DNA of 35,757 nucleotides from Bacillota bacterium (GTDB lineage: Bacteria; Bacillota; Limnochordia; DUMW01), in contig DUMW01000072.1 in assembly GCA_012839765.1 (NCBI GenBank), positions 1-35,757 on the forward strand, read 5' to 3'. Shown piece after piece: positions 5,843-15,638 of this stretch. The notes under the pieces are model-generated. The model ran no database searches. It worked only from the letters and a program-made list of their open reading frames with translations, and was not told where the DNA came from. Made by a program: the position numbers and the translations under genes. The first letter of the stretch is position 1; each line of letters opens with the position of its first letter.

Positions 5843-6559
5843 CTAAGCAAGATCCTGCAGGATCTCTTCGGAAGTAAACCGGTTGGCAATCTCCCTATCC
5901 TGGATAATTCGACCGTCCCGCAGCCGGATCAGACGTTTGCCGAAGGAGGCCGCCCAGGGGTCATGGGTCACCAGGACGATGGTGGTGCCTTGGTCATTGA
6001 GCTCTTGTAGCAGCCGGAGGATTTCTTCCCCTTGGTCACTGGCCAGATTCCCCGTAGGCTCGTCGGCCAGAAGCAAAGTAGGCTCGTTGGCCAGGGCGCG
6101 GGCAATAGCCACCCGTTGCTGCTCACCTCCGGAAAGCTGGTTCGGGTAATGATGCAGCCGCTGGGACAGGCCCATCCGCTCCAACAGCTCCTTTGCCCGG
6201 GGCAACCACTCCCGCTTACCCTTCCCCCCATACATCATGGGGACAGCTACATTCTCCAGGGCAGTCAATTCCGGCAGCAGGTTGTATGCCTGAAAAATGA
6301 AACCAAAATGGCGGTTTCGAATCCGGGACAGTTCCTTGTCACTAAGTTCGGTGATATCCACTTCCTCCAAGAGGTAAGCGCCACTGGTGGCCTGATCTAA
6401 ACCGCCAAGGATGTGGAGCAAAGTAGACTTTCCCGAGCCTGACGGTCCCATTACTGAGATAAACTCACCCCGCTGGATGGTCAGGTTGACATCGGCCAGG
6501 GCCCAGACTTCCTCACCACCACGATCATAGCACTTACTGATGGACTCCAATCTGATCAT
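5843..6559 (-). CDS. ABC transporter ATP-binding protein, MacB/LolD type
   Basis: A 238-residue ATPase with all motifs: Walker [10 protein letters not shown] (around 39-47), Q-loop in [17 protein letters not shown], signature LSGGEQQR, Walker [12 protein letters not shown], and the H-loop VTHD. The Q-loop region and the [13 protein letters not shown] block are typical of the MacB/LolD/FtsE class that works with FtsX-fold permeases. The ATG overlaps the adaptor gene by 4 bp (6556-6559). It should energise the two permeases at 883-3493. It is one gene of a single leftward operon. Confidence 0.93.
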
Positions 6560-7851
6560 TGCATCCGTCCTCCCTGGGGATTGACTCGGATCTCCTCTTT
6601 GTGTCTATATTCATCATAGGAACTGGTAATGACCAATTCACCGGCCTCCAATCCCTCCAAGATCTGTACAAAATTGCCCTCCATGATGCCAAGACGCACG
6701 TCCCTGCGCACAGCCTTGTCCCCTTGCAGAACATAAACGAACATCCGCTGGCCGCTTACCAGGAAGGCTCCCCGGGGCAAATACAGACTGTCCCTGTGGT
6801 CCCGGAGATGGATATCCACAGCTGCGCTGCTGCCCGGGCGCAATCCTTCCGCCGAACCGTCAATCTCCACTCGGACCACCACCGTGGGATTATCCCCCTG
6901 GGTATCCGCGGAGGGGGCAATATAGGTAATGTGACCAGGCAGGACCGTGGAGCCCACCGTGATCCGACAGGTTTGTCCCAAGGTCAAGTAGTCGGCTTGA
7001 CTGCTGGTGACCCGCACCTCCACCACTTGATCCGAGACATCCGCAATTTGTCCGATCATCTTGTTTGCCGCCAGTTCCTGGTGCAGACTCACATTCAAGC
7101 TCAGGATCCGCCCGTCAATGGGAGCCGTAACCACCAAACTATCCATGAGCCGTTGAATCTGCTCCAGTTCCTCTTTGGCCAGCTCCAGATTTACCTGGGC
7201 GTTTTCCACAGTGGCTGCCGCCCGGCGTCTTTTGATCTCCAATTGTCTTTCTGCCTGCTCCACATGGAGCTTTGCCTCCGCTAGCAGCTTTTGGGCATCC
7301 TGCAGTTCCTTCTCCGCCACGGTGCCATACTGCTTCAAAAGCTCCAACAGGGCCAACTGTTCTTCGGCCTCCGCCAGCTTCTCCTGGCTTTCCCGCAGGG
7401 TCTGCTCCCCTAGGAGCAGATCTGCTTCCGCATCATACTGGGCGCTGGACAGTTCAAACTCCTGCTGATTAACCTTCCGTAGGGCCTCATCCCGCCGTTT
7501 GACCAGTTCCGCCGACTCCATCACCAACAGGATCTCCCCCTGAACCACATCCTGCCCTTCCGCCACTAAAATCTGGGTAATAACCCCTTCGGCCAAGGTA
7601 TGGATCTCCTTCACCTGCCGGGGACGGAGGCTTCCCACCACACTGAGGGTCTCGGCAAAATCTCGGGTACCCACCTGGGCGTAGGTGTAATAATCCAACA
7701 GAAATTCTTCGTCCTTAGGTTTGAAAAAAAGGTAGGCCCCGGCGGCAATGATGACGAGGAAGGCCAACACAAAGACAAGTAAGCTCAATTGCGGGTTTCG
7801 ACGACGCTTTTTGGGACGGGAGACGATGATCCTCTCTTCCACCCTTCCCAC
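6556..7851 (-). CDS. MacA/HlyD-type periplasmic adaptor protein
   Basis: This 431-residue membrane-fusion protein has a basic N terminus (RPKKRRR), one membrane helix (around 24-43, LLVFVLAFLVIIAAGAYLF), a biotinyl-lipoyl half-motif (EGVITQILVAEGQDVVQGEILL, split by the hairpin), and a long coiled-coil of about 120 residues (around 120-235). The second lipoyl half (APIDGRILSLNV) and beta-barrel and membrane-proximal domains complete the RND/MacA adaptor plan. The coiled coil is where such proteins dock onto TolC tips. GTG 7851 and GTG 7842 are both possible starts in a purine-rich stretch. With the ATPase, permeases and TolC-like proteins it completes a MacAB-TolC-like pump. Confidence 0.9.
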   Translation of the reverse strand: MGRVEERIIVSRPKKRRRNPQLSLLVFVLAFLVIIAAGAYLFFKPKDEEFLLDYYTYAQVGTRDFAETLSVVGSLRPRQVKEIHTLAEGVITQILVAEGQDVVQGEILLVMESAELVKRRDEALRKVNQQEFELSSAQYDAEADLLLGEQTLRESQEKLAEAEEQLALLELLKQYGTVAEKELQDAQKLLAEAKLHVEQAERQLEIKRRRAAATVENAQVNLELAKEELEQIQRLMDSLVVTAPIDGRILSLNVSLHQELAANKMIGQIADVSDQVVEVRVTSSQADYLTLGQTCRITVGSTVLPGHITYIAPSADTQGDNPTVVVRVEIDGSAEGLRPGSSAAVDIHLRDHRDSLYLPRGAFLVSGQRMFVYVLQGDKAVRRDVRLGIMEGNFVQILEGLEAGELVITSSYDEYRHKEEIRVNPQGGRMQ

Positions 7852-10712: not shown

Positions 10713-10720
10713 TAATCCTT

Positions 10721-11056
10721 CCTGAGTAAACCGATAAGCCGGGTTCTGTCGAGGGTGATCATCCATCTGGGAAACTAGTTGCCTAGCTTCTCTAGCGACC
10801 TAACCCGAGGGAACCGGCGGGCCACCGTTAACTCCCTCCTATTTGGTCTTGCTCCTAGTGGGGTTTACCAAGCCGGTTAGTCGCCTAACCGCTGGTGCGC
10901 TCTTACCGCACCTTTTCACCCTTACCCCCGAAAGGGGGCGGTTTGTTTTCTGTGGCACTTTCCTTGAGGTCGCCCTCACTGGGTGTTACCCAGCACTATG
11001 CCCTGTGGAGCCCGGACTTTCCTCGCATACTAGCGCGATCACCTAGTTTACTCAGG
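10721..11056 (-). ncRNA. rnpB: RNase P RNA, A type
   Basis: The catalytic RNA of RNase P, which removes 5' leaders from tRNA precursors. On the minus strand the conserved block GAGGAAAGTCCGGGCTCCA is near 11022-11004, AGTGCCACAGAAAACA lies further down, and ACAGAACCCGGCTTAT is near the 3' end. The ends CCTGAGTAAAC and GTTTACTCAGG pair perfectly as helix P1, which fixes the boundaries and gives about 336 nt. A perfect SigA promoter and an intrinsic terminator flank it. Confidence 0.97.
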
Positions 11057-12244: not shown

Positions 12245-13522
12245 TTACTCAAACACATATACCGGTGTGCAAAGGGAATAGCTTCCCAAGGGAGTTTCAA
12301 AGACCAACTCACCGTAAACAGCCAAGGGGTCCTTAAACTTCAGGAACTTATGTTGCACCTGATTGTAGTTTATTTCCCTCGCGTCCACACTGGTCCAGGT
12401 GGCTGTACGGAAGTCCTTGAAGGGACTCAGCGCCAGCCAAAACCGGGCCGCCTTCACCGGCTGATCCGCTTGTACCTGGAAATAGATCTCGTTCCCGTCC
12501 TCGGTCACTTCCCAGGTCAACTGCGGTAAGGGCAAGTCACCCTGAAACACGTTGCGGCAGAAGGCCACCAGGGTGGGAATAATCACCCGTGGATCTCCGC
12601 CCAAATCATGGCCGCCGTTGGCCACGTAATAGAGGTAGGTGTCGCCCACAAGGTCGTACAGGTAGTGATGCACCGCATCCACGGCCCAGTAGGGGTCATT
12701 GCTCCCCATGAACAACAGCTTCGGCATGGTGATCTTTTCTCGATAGGCGTAGGGATCAACAATGTCCACCAAGGCCTGCCCCATCGGCGTCCCAAGTACT
12801 TCATGAAGCCCCAACGAGGTGTAGTCCCCGATTTTGTAGCTAAAATCGCCCCACACAGCCACCTGATGAGCCATCTGGGCCGGGATATTCAGGTTGTCGT
12901 AAACCATGGGAGCAATACCAATCACCCGTTCGTCCACCGCGGCCACAAGCCAGGTGGTCCAGCCCCGTTTCGACGCACCGCAGACCATATAGCCGTTGGG
13001 TTGGCGTCCCAGGCGTTCCAAGATAAATTCGTCCACCGCATCCATGGCCCGGGCTGCGGCATTGGTCATGGGAAGATGACAGATCCACGTTGGATCCCCT
13101 GTATTCAGAAACTGCAGCCAGGTAAAGGCCAACAATTCATCTTCCCGCATGCCCCCAAACAACGGCTGGTTAGGCACATCATGCAGGATCGCGGCAATTT
13201 GCCCGGTCAACACTGCCGCCTCGGAAAACCAGGCAAGCTCCTCTGTCCCAGAACCACTGCCGGTGATAAACAGAATCACACCCGTGGGCTGTCCCGGCGG
13301 AACGAGAACCCGCAGACGATGGTTCCACTGGATGCCCTGCCAAGTACCGGAATATAAGTCGAGAAAATAGGCGTCCACCCCATTGGGCAGTTTGGTCTGG
13401 GACGTCAGCTTCCAGCTGTAGTCGTTACTGCCGGTAACTACATACTCCTCTAGCGGTCCGGCGTACACATAGGCGCTAAGCACTAGGACGATCAGATACG
13501 ATAGGAGAACAATTCTTTTCAT
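12245..13522 (-). CDS. Secreted PhoPQ-activated pathogenicity-related (PqaA-type) alpha/beta hydrolase
   Basis: A 425-residue exported protein with a signal peptide (MKRIVLLSYLIVLVLSAYVYA). It matches the PqaA family: CGASKRGWTTWL carries the nucleophile elbow (GxSxxG), followed by AAVDERVIGIAPMVYD. A probable catalytic Asp lies in LLFMGSNDPYW and His in ANGGHDLGG. The N-terminal segment has the paired WNHRLRVLVPPG and ILFITGSGSG strands. The name comes from Salmonella and says nothing about virulence here; substrates of the family are not established. ATG 13522 is chosen because it has GGGGGA upstream, whereas ATG 13543 has no ribosome site. The C-terminal 90 residues look like a beta-sandwich accessory domain. 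Confidence 0.87.
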   Translation of the reverse strand: MKRIVLLSYLIVLVLSAYVYAGPLEEYVVTGSNDYSWKLTSQTKLPNGVDAYFLDLYSGTWQGIQWNHRLRVLVPPGQPTGVILFITGSGSGTEELAWFSEAAVLTGQIAAILHDVPNQPLFGGMREDELLAFTWLQFLNTGDPTWICHLPMTNAAARAMDAVDEFILERLGRQPNGYMVCGASKRGWTTWLVAAVDERVIGIAPMVYDNLNIPAQMAHQVAVWGDFSYKIGDYTSLGLHEVLGTPMGQALVDIVDPYAYREKITMPKLLFMGSNDPYWAVDAVHHYLYDLVGDTYLYYVANGGHDLGGDPRVIIPTLVAFCRNVFQGDLPLPQLTWEVTEDGNEIYFQVQADQPVKAARFWLALSPFKDFRTATWTSVDAREINYNQVQHKFLKFKDPLAVYGELVFETPLGSYSLCTPVYVFE

Positions 13523-13658
13523 GTCGATCCCCCAACCATTCATATTTTATACTATTTTATTTCTCTAAAACTAAGGACAATCCTGCCAAAGTACCCAGGG
13601 ACCGGGATATAGTGAGGTGAATTGCAGGGTAAGGGGGAAGGGAACTCTAGTGGAGATG

Positions 13659-13705
13659 AAAAAAGCTAGCTGATCCAATCAAGGGAGAAAAAGGGACCAG
13701 CTAAC
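13659..13705 (-). terminator. Intrinsic terminator after the 52-residue gene
   Basis: On the minus strand, arms GTTAGCTGGTCC (13705-13694) and GGATCAGCTAGC (13676-13665) pair over 12 positions with two G-T wobbles, followed by six T. It closes the riboswitch-controlled unit before the PqaA-like gene. Confidence 0.75.
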
Positions 13706-13776
13706 TTGTAAGCAGGCAAAGCAGGAAATCAACGGGGTCAGTACTCCTTTCCACCTGAGCAACAAGAACCCTACGT

Positions 13777-13935
13777 CTAGTCTTCGCGGATCCCCACGAT
13801 ACGCAGGTATTGATTGAACAATCGCTCGTACTCCTGTACGGCCGATTTCATCGTCTTCTCTTCGGACTGACGCCGCGCGTTTTCCAGTTGTCCCCTTGCC
13901 TTCTCCAGTTCCGTTAGAATCTTCTCGACCTTCAT
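13777..13935 (-). CDS. 52-residue coiled-coil protein under a c-di-AMP riboswitch
   Basis: This is a short charged protein: MKVEKILTELEKARGQL, a second helix with ARRQSEEKTMKSAVQ, then an aromatic end (YERLFNQYLRIVGIRED). It has no signal peptide or membrane helix and is predicted by eye to be a helical hairpin or coiled coil. ATG 13935 has GGAAGGG upstream. The longer reading to 14019 runs through the riboswitch terminator and is rejected. It is the only gene between the riboswitch and the next terminator, so it should be its sole target. I do not recognise a family. Its control suggests a role in potassium, osmotic or cell-wall homeostasis, which is an inference. Confidence 0.7.
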   Translation of the reverse strand: MKVEKILTELEKARGQLENARRQSEEKTMKSAVQEYERLFNQYLRIVGIRED

Positions 13936-13973
13936 CGCGACCCTTCCTTTCATACTTAGATTACGGTCACCGA

Positions 13974-14003
13974 AACAAAAAAACCACGTAAAGGCTACGT
14001 GGT
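13974..14003 (-). terminator. Terminator in the riboswitch expression platform
   Basis: On the minus strand, ACCACGTA and TACGTGGT form a stem around a 5-nt loop, followed by seven T. It begins 13 nt after the aptamer ends and about 40 nt before the coding region, the usual place for an OFF-switch terminator. Confidence 0.88.
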
Positions 14004-14015
14004 CATATGAAGGTA

Positions 14016-14148
14016 CCACACGCCTCCTTTCTACAGCCTACGAGGTTAGCTGTCGGGTTAGGGCAGAAAGGGTAGCCCCGCTTGAAAGATAAGCTTCACC
14101 CCAAAAGATTGGGTCCCCCGCTGTCATAAAGACACTCGGCATGCGTGG
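14016..14148 (-). promoter_or_regulatory. c-di-AMP riboswitch (ydaO-yuaA class)
   Basis: On the minus strand, the conserved blocks of the ydaO aptamer appear in order: GCGGGGGACCCAAT, GGGGTGAA, a GGGCTACCC region, CCCGACAGCTAACCTCGTAGGC and AGAAAGGAGGCGTG. The outer ends CCACGC and GTGTGG pair as P1 with one G-T. These blocks match the Bacillus ydaO aptamer as I remember it. Members of this class bind cyclic di-AMP and normally turn expression off. A promoter lies 20 nt upstream and a terminator 13 nt downstream. Confidence 0.93.
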
Positions 14149-14169
14149 ATCTATTCACTTGGTAAGGCA

Positions 14170-14198
14170 AGTATACCATATCATCCCTGGGATGGCAA
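14170..14198 (-). promoter_or_regulatory. SigA promoter of the riboswitch transcript
   Basis: On the minus strand, TTGCCA (14198-14193), a 17-nt spacer, then TATACT (14175-14170). The start point should be near 14163, about 15 nt before the aptamer. Confidence 0.8.
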
Positions 14199-14414: not shown

Positions 14415-15638
14415 ATGCTTAAGACATTAGGCTACAGAGACTACGATGCCCTACCGGCCCGACTGAAAGGCTTCCTTGACGAACAGCATTACAAGGCCTA
14501 TAAGCTGATCGACCATCTGCGGTACGCGCCCACAGGTATGTATCGTGATGCCTATGTCTTCGAGGGGCAGGAGGACATTCCCTGTTCCGTGGCCGCCAAC
14601 GGTGTGGGGTTGATCGGGTTAGCCATCGCCCATCACGCTGGTTGGGACTCCGCTGCACCGGCCAAGGCCCTGACCACACTGCGCACCATGGCCCACCGGC
14701 ACGCCCAGTGCCGTCCTGAACGGGATAAAGCCACCGGTTTTTTTCGCCACTGGTTTGATGTGGCGACAGGACGCCAGCGGATGAATGCGGAGTTTTCCAC
14801 CGTGGATACGGCCATCTTCATCTGTGGAGCCATCTTCGCCTCCAACTACTTCCAGGACCCCGAAATGGTCCACCTCACCAGACAGCTACTTCACTCCATC
14901 GATTGGTCCGCGGCCATTGCGGACGAAGTTTCGGGTATTCTTTATATGAGCGTGGAAGAGGGTAAAGGCGCCGAACCCATTTGCCCCTTCAATGAGTATG
15001 CCCTCCTGGCCTACATAATTGCCCAGGTACACCCCGAAAGGGCGCAGTTATGGCACAATGCTTTTCAGGATACCAAATTGTATAAGCATCCAACCTATCT
15101 GCGTTACGGGAAAACCATCCCGGGCATGCCCCACGGGATCCCTTCTTCCTTTGTCTACCAGTTTCCCTTTTATTTAGTCTATGACTACACCGTCAGTGGC
15201 TACTATCGGGAAATCATGTATAATGTGGCCCTGGCAGACAAGGCCAGCTGGAGGGAACGAGGATGGCCCTCTTTCGTATGGGGCCATGGGGCCGGCGAGA
15301 ATCATCAAGGATACTACCATGCCGATGCCATTGACAACAACCCCACCGGAACCGTCTCCCCCTACATCGCCGCCGGGTTCCTACCGGTATATCCCGAGGC
15401 CGCCTTTGATCTGATAAAAATGTACACCTACATCCAAGCCCACGGTGAAAGCCAATCTCCCCGCTTCCGCCATGCCTACCGTTTTGGCCTTTCCCGGTTC
15501 TGTCCAGGACACCGTTGGTATCCGCGCCATCTAGCCGCGATCGATTGGAGCAGTATGCTCTATGGTCTTACCGCCTTCAGATGGGGTACTCATTTCTTTT
15601 CTCGCCACAATCAGATCACCGGTGCCTTCCTAGATTAG
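14415..15638 (+). CDS. Glycoamylase-like (PF10091 / GH144-like) protein
   Basis: A 407-residue protein without a signal peptide. The segments GFFRHWFDVATGRQR (around 108-122) and FSTVDTAIFICGAIFAS (around 127-143) are the hallmark of the glycoamylase-like family, an (alpha/alpha)6 toroid that includes beta-1,2-glucan hydrolases. A glycine/histidine stretch (WGHGAGENHQGYYH, around 296-309) and PYIAAGFLPVYPEAA follow as in the family. The exact substrate cannot be inferred. The ATG has GAGGTG closely upstream. It is transcribed away from the riboswitch unit, with a 217-bp divergent region between the two promoter sides. The MscS gene follows 81 bp downstream. The lack of a signal peptide suggests an intracellular role unless export is non-classical. 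Confidence 0.65.
   Translation: MLKTLGYRDYDALPARLKGFLDEQHYKAYKLIDHLRYAPTGMYRDAYVFEGQEDIPCSVAANGVGLIGLAIAHHAGWDSAAPAKALTTLRTMAHRHAQCRPERDKATGFFRHWFDVATGRQRMNAEFSTVDTAIFICGAIFASNYFQDPEMVHLTRQLLHSIDWSAAIADEVSGILYMSVEEGKGAEPICPFNEYALLAYIIAQVHPERAQLWHNAFQDTKLYKHPTYLRYGKTIPGMPHGIPSSFVYQFPFYLVYDYTVSGYYREIMYNVALADKASWRERGWPSFVWGHGAGENHQGYYHADAIDNNPTGTVSPYIAAGFLPVYPEAAFDLIKMYTYIQAHGESQSPRFRHAYRFGLSRFCPGHRWYPRHLAAIDWSSMLYGLTAFRWGTHFFSRHNQITGAFLD

Follow-up and report, generated by a model that had tools for sequence, protein, structure and literature searches.

Results

Organization of the riboswitch locus

The window analyzed here is a 35,757-nucleotide stretch of DNA (contig DUMW01000072.1, assembly GCA_012839765.1) from a bacterium of the phylum Bacillota, class Limnochordia. 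It carries a predicted c-di-AMP riboswitch unit on the minus strand, placed between a glycoamylase-like gene and a PqaA-like gene. In the direction in which the unit would be transcribed, the features are:

14415-15638, plus strand: divergent glycoamylase-like gene (PF10091), by family match
14170-14198, minus strand: candidate sigma-70-like promoter, TTGCCA-17-TATACT with a TG extension, 10/12 matches
14020-14151, minus strand: c-di-AMP (ydaO/yuaA) riboswitch aptamer, RF00379, 97.3 bits
13975-14004, minus strand: intrinsic terminator of the expression platform, 9-10 bp stem (14004-13982) and U tract, by folding
13941-13950, minus strand: Shine-Dalgarno sequence AAAGGAAGGG, read from the sequence
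13777-13935, minus strand: putative small protein gene, 52 codons and 52 aa, net charge +1, by codon bias and AlphaFold2
13659-13705, minus strand: closing intrinsic terminator, 12-pair stem and U6, -19.5 kcal/mol, z -4.2
12245-13543, minus strand: PqaA-like gene (PF10142, 2.8e-95), start at 13543 or 13522

The covariance match to RF00379 is full-length (model positions 1-134 of 134; E 4.8e-22) and scores 97.3 bits against a gathering threshold of 38. The conserved core and pairing are intact in the alignment, with only a few non-standard pairs, which bears out the ydaO-class aptamer named in an initial annotation made from the sequence alone. The expression platform adjoins the 3' end of the aptamer: the first terminator (14004-13982 plus U tract; -11.8 kcal/mol, z -3.9) starts approximately 16 nt past it, and the closing terminator lies about 70 nt beyond the stop codon of the 52-codon ORF. 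Measured from the aptamer, the terminator is at +36, the ORF at +84 and the closing terminator at +355. The initial annotation had described a self-contained unit; the aptamer and the terminators on both sides of one ORF were recovered by computation, and the promoter at 14198-14170 is backed mainly by its position, since sites this good arise at chance frequency in the region. Transcription of the riboswitch unit would start near 14163.

Thirteen other genomes of the class carry the glycoamylase-like neighbor (43-51% identity). In the fetched loci of ten of these 13 it sits away from the other genes of the riboswitch region, so there is no orthologous locus to compare, and a GTDB scan using this neighbor returned nothing useful. 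Elsewhere in the window, an RNase P RNA (class A, 327.7 bits; 10719-11054, minus strand) lies between NIF3-like and polysaccharide-flippase-like genes.

Coding potential of the short ORF

Does the 52-codon frame encode a protein? A codon log-odds model built from long ORFs in the window and in two further contigs of the same genome gives an average of +0.48 per codon across 13777-13935. Real coding windows score 0.34 +/- 0.18, open non-coding frames -0.26 +/- 0.26. This score tops 81% of real 52-codon coding windows and is equalled in 1 of 271 non-coding windows (0.4%). The codon statistics thus support the ORF as coding. AlphaFold2, run on the single sequence, models the protein as a two-helix hairpin (helices 2-22 and 26-47) with a mean pLDDT of 93.3. 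Coiled-coil-like sequences commonly yield a confident helical hairpin from one sequence, so we regard the model as modest support for a gene. A fold search with it gave nothing significant, the best match (E 0.98) being a generic helical hairpin.

Searches for homologs of the 52-aa protein in 73 genomes of the class, GTDB r220, plasmids and phages found none, and comparison with Pfam, NCBIfam, PHROGs and the PDB gave no match above cut-off; the best Pfam score, 17.9 bits against a cut-off of 25.4, came from a coiled-coil-type match. Weak matches within the class (E 0.04 and above) were rejected: most are fragments of longer open frames, and the top one lies on a contig without a listed aptamer. 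Among the genomes searched, the bacterial family to which the window belongs is represented by one genome only, so missing conservation is no evidence against the ORF. The initial annotation had named the lack of a conserved frame in related genomes as a refutation; no such frame appeared, but with a single genome of the family this refutes nothing, and codon usage favors coding.

Targets of c-di-AMP aptamers across the class

To place the locus among its relatives, we surveyed the DNA downstream of 148 aptamers from 73 genomes of the class. Beyond the small proteins described below, the genes behind the aptamers comprise a cation/proton antiporter family (approximately 20 loci), SulP-type transporters (17) and SBP_bac_5 solute-binding proteins (13), with Opu-type glycine-betaine systems (10), octopine-dehydrogenase-like enzymes (7) and AtuA-like proteins (about 5) as further targets. 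Veg (PF06257) follows aptamers at approximately 20 loci in all, at some of them after other small genes. All these targets fit the c-di-AMP themes of K+, osmolytes and envelope (PMC7266159). One of four small-protein families of 30-67 aa supplies the first gene at 47 of the 148 loci (32%); a small-protein target, which had been called uncommon in the initial annotation, is a recurrent arrangement in this class.

Two further arrangements were observed. Aptamers upstream of veg, which encodes a biofilm stimulator, occur at L022, L090, L104, L108, L117, L149 and other loci of the class, and sometimes a gene for a protein of 103-112 aa (YHFIL...PGNY.L.GLKLPDPKPGN), unmatched in Pfam and NCBIfam, lies between aptamer and veg. 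On contig C10 of genome G008 (6139-7805), two c-di-AMP aptamers approximately 1.3 kb apart on the same strand precede a GATase-type gene and an AtuA-like gene.

Four small-protein families

The four families, A1 to A4, differ in character. A1, with the motif 'ExHPRQK', comprises proteins of 47-59 aa from 17 genomes, all of one bacterial family; E-x-H-P-R and a K are invariant, and it has no Pfam or NCBIfam match. A2 (47-67 aa, 14 genomes) is a CxxC...CxxC zinc ribbon with a basic tail, A3 is a membrane peptide of 30-32 aa found at 8 loci, and A4 (51-53 aa, 8 genomes) is a zinc ribbon, 'CVDCGERIAxWEDYCPKCG', again with a basic tail. In coding sequence the third codon position is expected to vary most, and it does so in each of the four families.

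Because the families had been picked for following an aptamer, A1, A2 and A4 were searched for genome-wide with profiles blind to the aptamer. Each of the 17 A1 members has an aptamer 24-86 nt upstream. The 15 full-length A2 members likewise all follow an aptamer, in one case an aptamer cut by the contig end, as do all nine A4 members, one of them behind an aptamer absent from the first listing. Weaker, partial A2 matches are generic zinc ribbons, and the three that were checked, on two contigs, have no aptamer nearby. A1 is absent from 399 genomes sampled across the phylum; the sample contained none of the A1-carrying genomes, so it says only that A1 is not widespread beyond its own family.

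The A1 loci have a regular layout. A first terminator is present at +26 to +38 in 15 of 17, and with one exception the ORF, typically some 53 codons long, lies at +70 to +86. A closing terminator is found in 16 of the loci, at +236 to +293, and in most of them at +266 to +293. As far as predicted features go, the window shares this layout as a singleton: aptamer, terminator, short ORF, terminator. At A4 loci there is no first terminator and the start codon lies 14-16 nt past the aptamer, suggesting translational control. Not every small gene stands alone, as four A2 loci run on into the gene of the 103-aa type and Veg.

How do these families relate to the 52-aa protein? They resemble it in their place after a c-di-AMP aptamer, their size and their Shine-Dalgarno sequences, and A1 also in its flanking terminators; they differ in that no sequence similarity is detectable, and A4 in lacking the first terminator. 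Profile comparison with A1 gave a probability of 0.1%, BLAST clustering of all downstream ORFs showed no similarity to A3, and the A1, A2 and A4 profiles have no match in the window's genome.

c-di-AMP signaling in the source genome and outside the class

The source genome encodes the diadenylate cyclase DisA and contains three c-di-AMP aptamers, the second of which lies upstream of a SulP-family transporter gene. The presence of DisA and of an aptamer before a SulP-family gene in the same genome indicates that c-di-AMP signaling is in use. The third aptamer (L080:5001-5136, minus strand, contig C116, 97.4 bits) is followed by a terminator at +28. The first convincing gene after it, of IclR type, lies approximately 465 nt downstream, and a 21-codon ORF in the interval lacks a clear Shine-Dalgarno sequence.

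We also examined 47 aptamer loci from outside the class but within the phylum, which are among the best-scoring matches and not a random draw. Nearly all their first genes are long, among them 2,3-aminomutase-like and opine-dehydrogenase-like enzymes and transporters (mostly named by eye); only two loci (L209 and L228), in one family, show an ORF of 55-56 aa, with the motif 'IKDYLxIAP'. The recurrent small-protein targets therefore look like a trait of this class. The IKDYLxIAP motif faintly resembles the aminomutase N-terminal R-I-x-D-Y-L found behind other aptamers. At L241:236-1516, from another class of the phylum, a glutamate 2,3-aminomutase gene (TIGR04368, 721 bits) follows a c-di-AMP aptamer, and this gene, with several similar-looking ones behind aptamers, ties the switch to beta-amino-acid osmolytes.

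Discussion

A candidate OFF switch for a small protein

We think it probable that the window contains a monocistronic OFF switch, responsive to c-di-AMP, that governs a small regulatory protein. At high c-di-AMP, the aptamer would fold and transcription would stop at 13982, as the behavior of the riboswitch class suggests. At low c-di-AMP, for instance in cells short of potassium or under hyperosmotic stress, a segment of the aptamer would pair with downstream sequence and with the 5' part of the terminator, allowing the polymerase to read through and the 52-aa helical-hairpin protein to be made. In folding calculations with the 3' arm of the terminator blocked, the aptamer segment GGCUACCCUUUCU pairs with the downstream AGAAAGG and the terminator GUAGCC. 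This antiterminator fold (-52.6 kcal/mol, compared with -61.7 kcal/mol for the terminated form) is a thermodynamic alternative only; its pairing is incompatible with the folded aptamer. The folding supports an OFF switch. The closing terminator would separate the message from the PqaA-like gene. The protein would most plausibly bind another protein, perhaps as a four-helix bundle formed by a dimer; this step, suggested by its fold and size, is the weakest of the scheme.

The unit agrees with RF00379 riboswitches in aptamer sequence and structure, in its terminator-type expression platform and in the presence of a diadenylate cyclase (DisA). Reviewed targets of c-di-AMP riboswitches are K+ and amino-acid transporters and cell-wall or osmotic-stress proteins (PMC7266159), whereas the target in the window is a single 52-aa protein with no family match. 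At the Na+/c-di-AMP tandem riboswitch of Dehalobacter ablA, c-di-AMP favors termination directly upstream of the gene in vitro (PMC9337991), and by analogy it would do so here; unlike that system, the window has a single aptamer, no Na+ aptamer was found in it, and its target is no osmolyte enzyme. The open literature searched yielded no paper joining c-di-AMP riboswitches with small-protein targets, although such targets may stand as hypothetical genes in the published lists (Nelson 2013, Block 2010).

Could the true target be the PqaA-like gene, reached by read-through, with the short ORF as a leader or spacer? That gene lies on the same strand as the riboswitch, and no strong sigma-70-like site was found upstream of it. 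Between the two stands a 12-pair terminator with U6, the short ORF uses codons as genes do, and by sequence comparison with representatives the PqaA-like gene lies behind none of the 147 other aptamers of the class (1 of 148, counting the window's own). We therefore find this reading quite unlikely, and the terminator after the ORF and the survey uphold the earlier proposal that a small helical protein is the only likely target. It is also conceivable that the ORF is untranslated, the unit yielding a short regulatory RNA or preserving the decayed remnant of a former target gene. That would suit an ORF for which no homolog was found, and the contig C116 aptamer of the same genome is likewise followed by a terminator and then by no convincing gene. 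Such a fate is unlikely for a frame whose codon log-odds of +0.48 is matched by 0.4% of non-coding open windows, which has a good Shine-Dalgarno sequence at the correct spacing, and whose product gives a confident two-helix model from a single sequence.

A further alternative would place the 52-aa protein, as a divergent member, among the Spo0E-like aspartyl-phosphate phosphatases, where it would connect c-di-AMP with a response regulator, for example Spo0A. Spo0E-like phosphatases (PF09388) share with it a length of approximately 50 residues and a helical-hairpin shape, and by eye its 'LEKxRxxL...QEYERLxxxY' loosely recalls their 'IExxRxxL...SQELDxLIxxY'. The likeness did not survive closer comparison: the PF09388 profile finds nothing in the genome even at E 10, VQEYE stands where the SQELD motif would be, a pairwise alignment scores E 12, and the Spo0E-like structures 2c0s and 2bzb are absent among the 50 fold matches listed. 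On these profile, motif and fold tests we rejected the identity, which we judge very improbable.

Implications

Many bacteria rely on the second messenger c-di-AMP to balance potassium, osmotic state and the cell wall, and its riboswitches have reliably pointed to the genes under its control. The monocistronic OFF switch proposed for the window would be one case of a class layout in which riboswitches are dedicated to orphan proteins of 30-67 residues, the families differing by lineage. We give roughly even chances to the broader proposal that the class has a 'small-protein regulon' under c-di-AMP. Roughly one in three of its c-di-AMP riboswitches would then serve lineage-varying orphan proteins of this size, with the 52-aa hairpin as a further, unrelated member. 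As post-translational effectors, the proteins would tune transporters, ribosomes or factors of sporulation and biofilm formation. Most of these small genes are likely to escape automated annotation; the ExHPRQK family, for example, has no Pfam or NCBIfam model. That many riboswitches of the class have a tiny protein first, and that three families were found only behind the riboswitch, points to unknown c-di-AMP effectors. The genes are short, mostly monocistronic-looking at A1 loci and equipped with a built-in condition for their expression, and they therefore lend themselves to direct testing.
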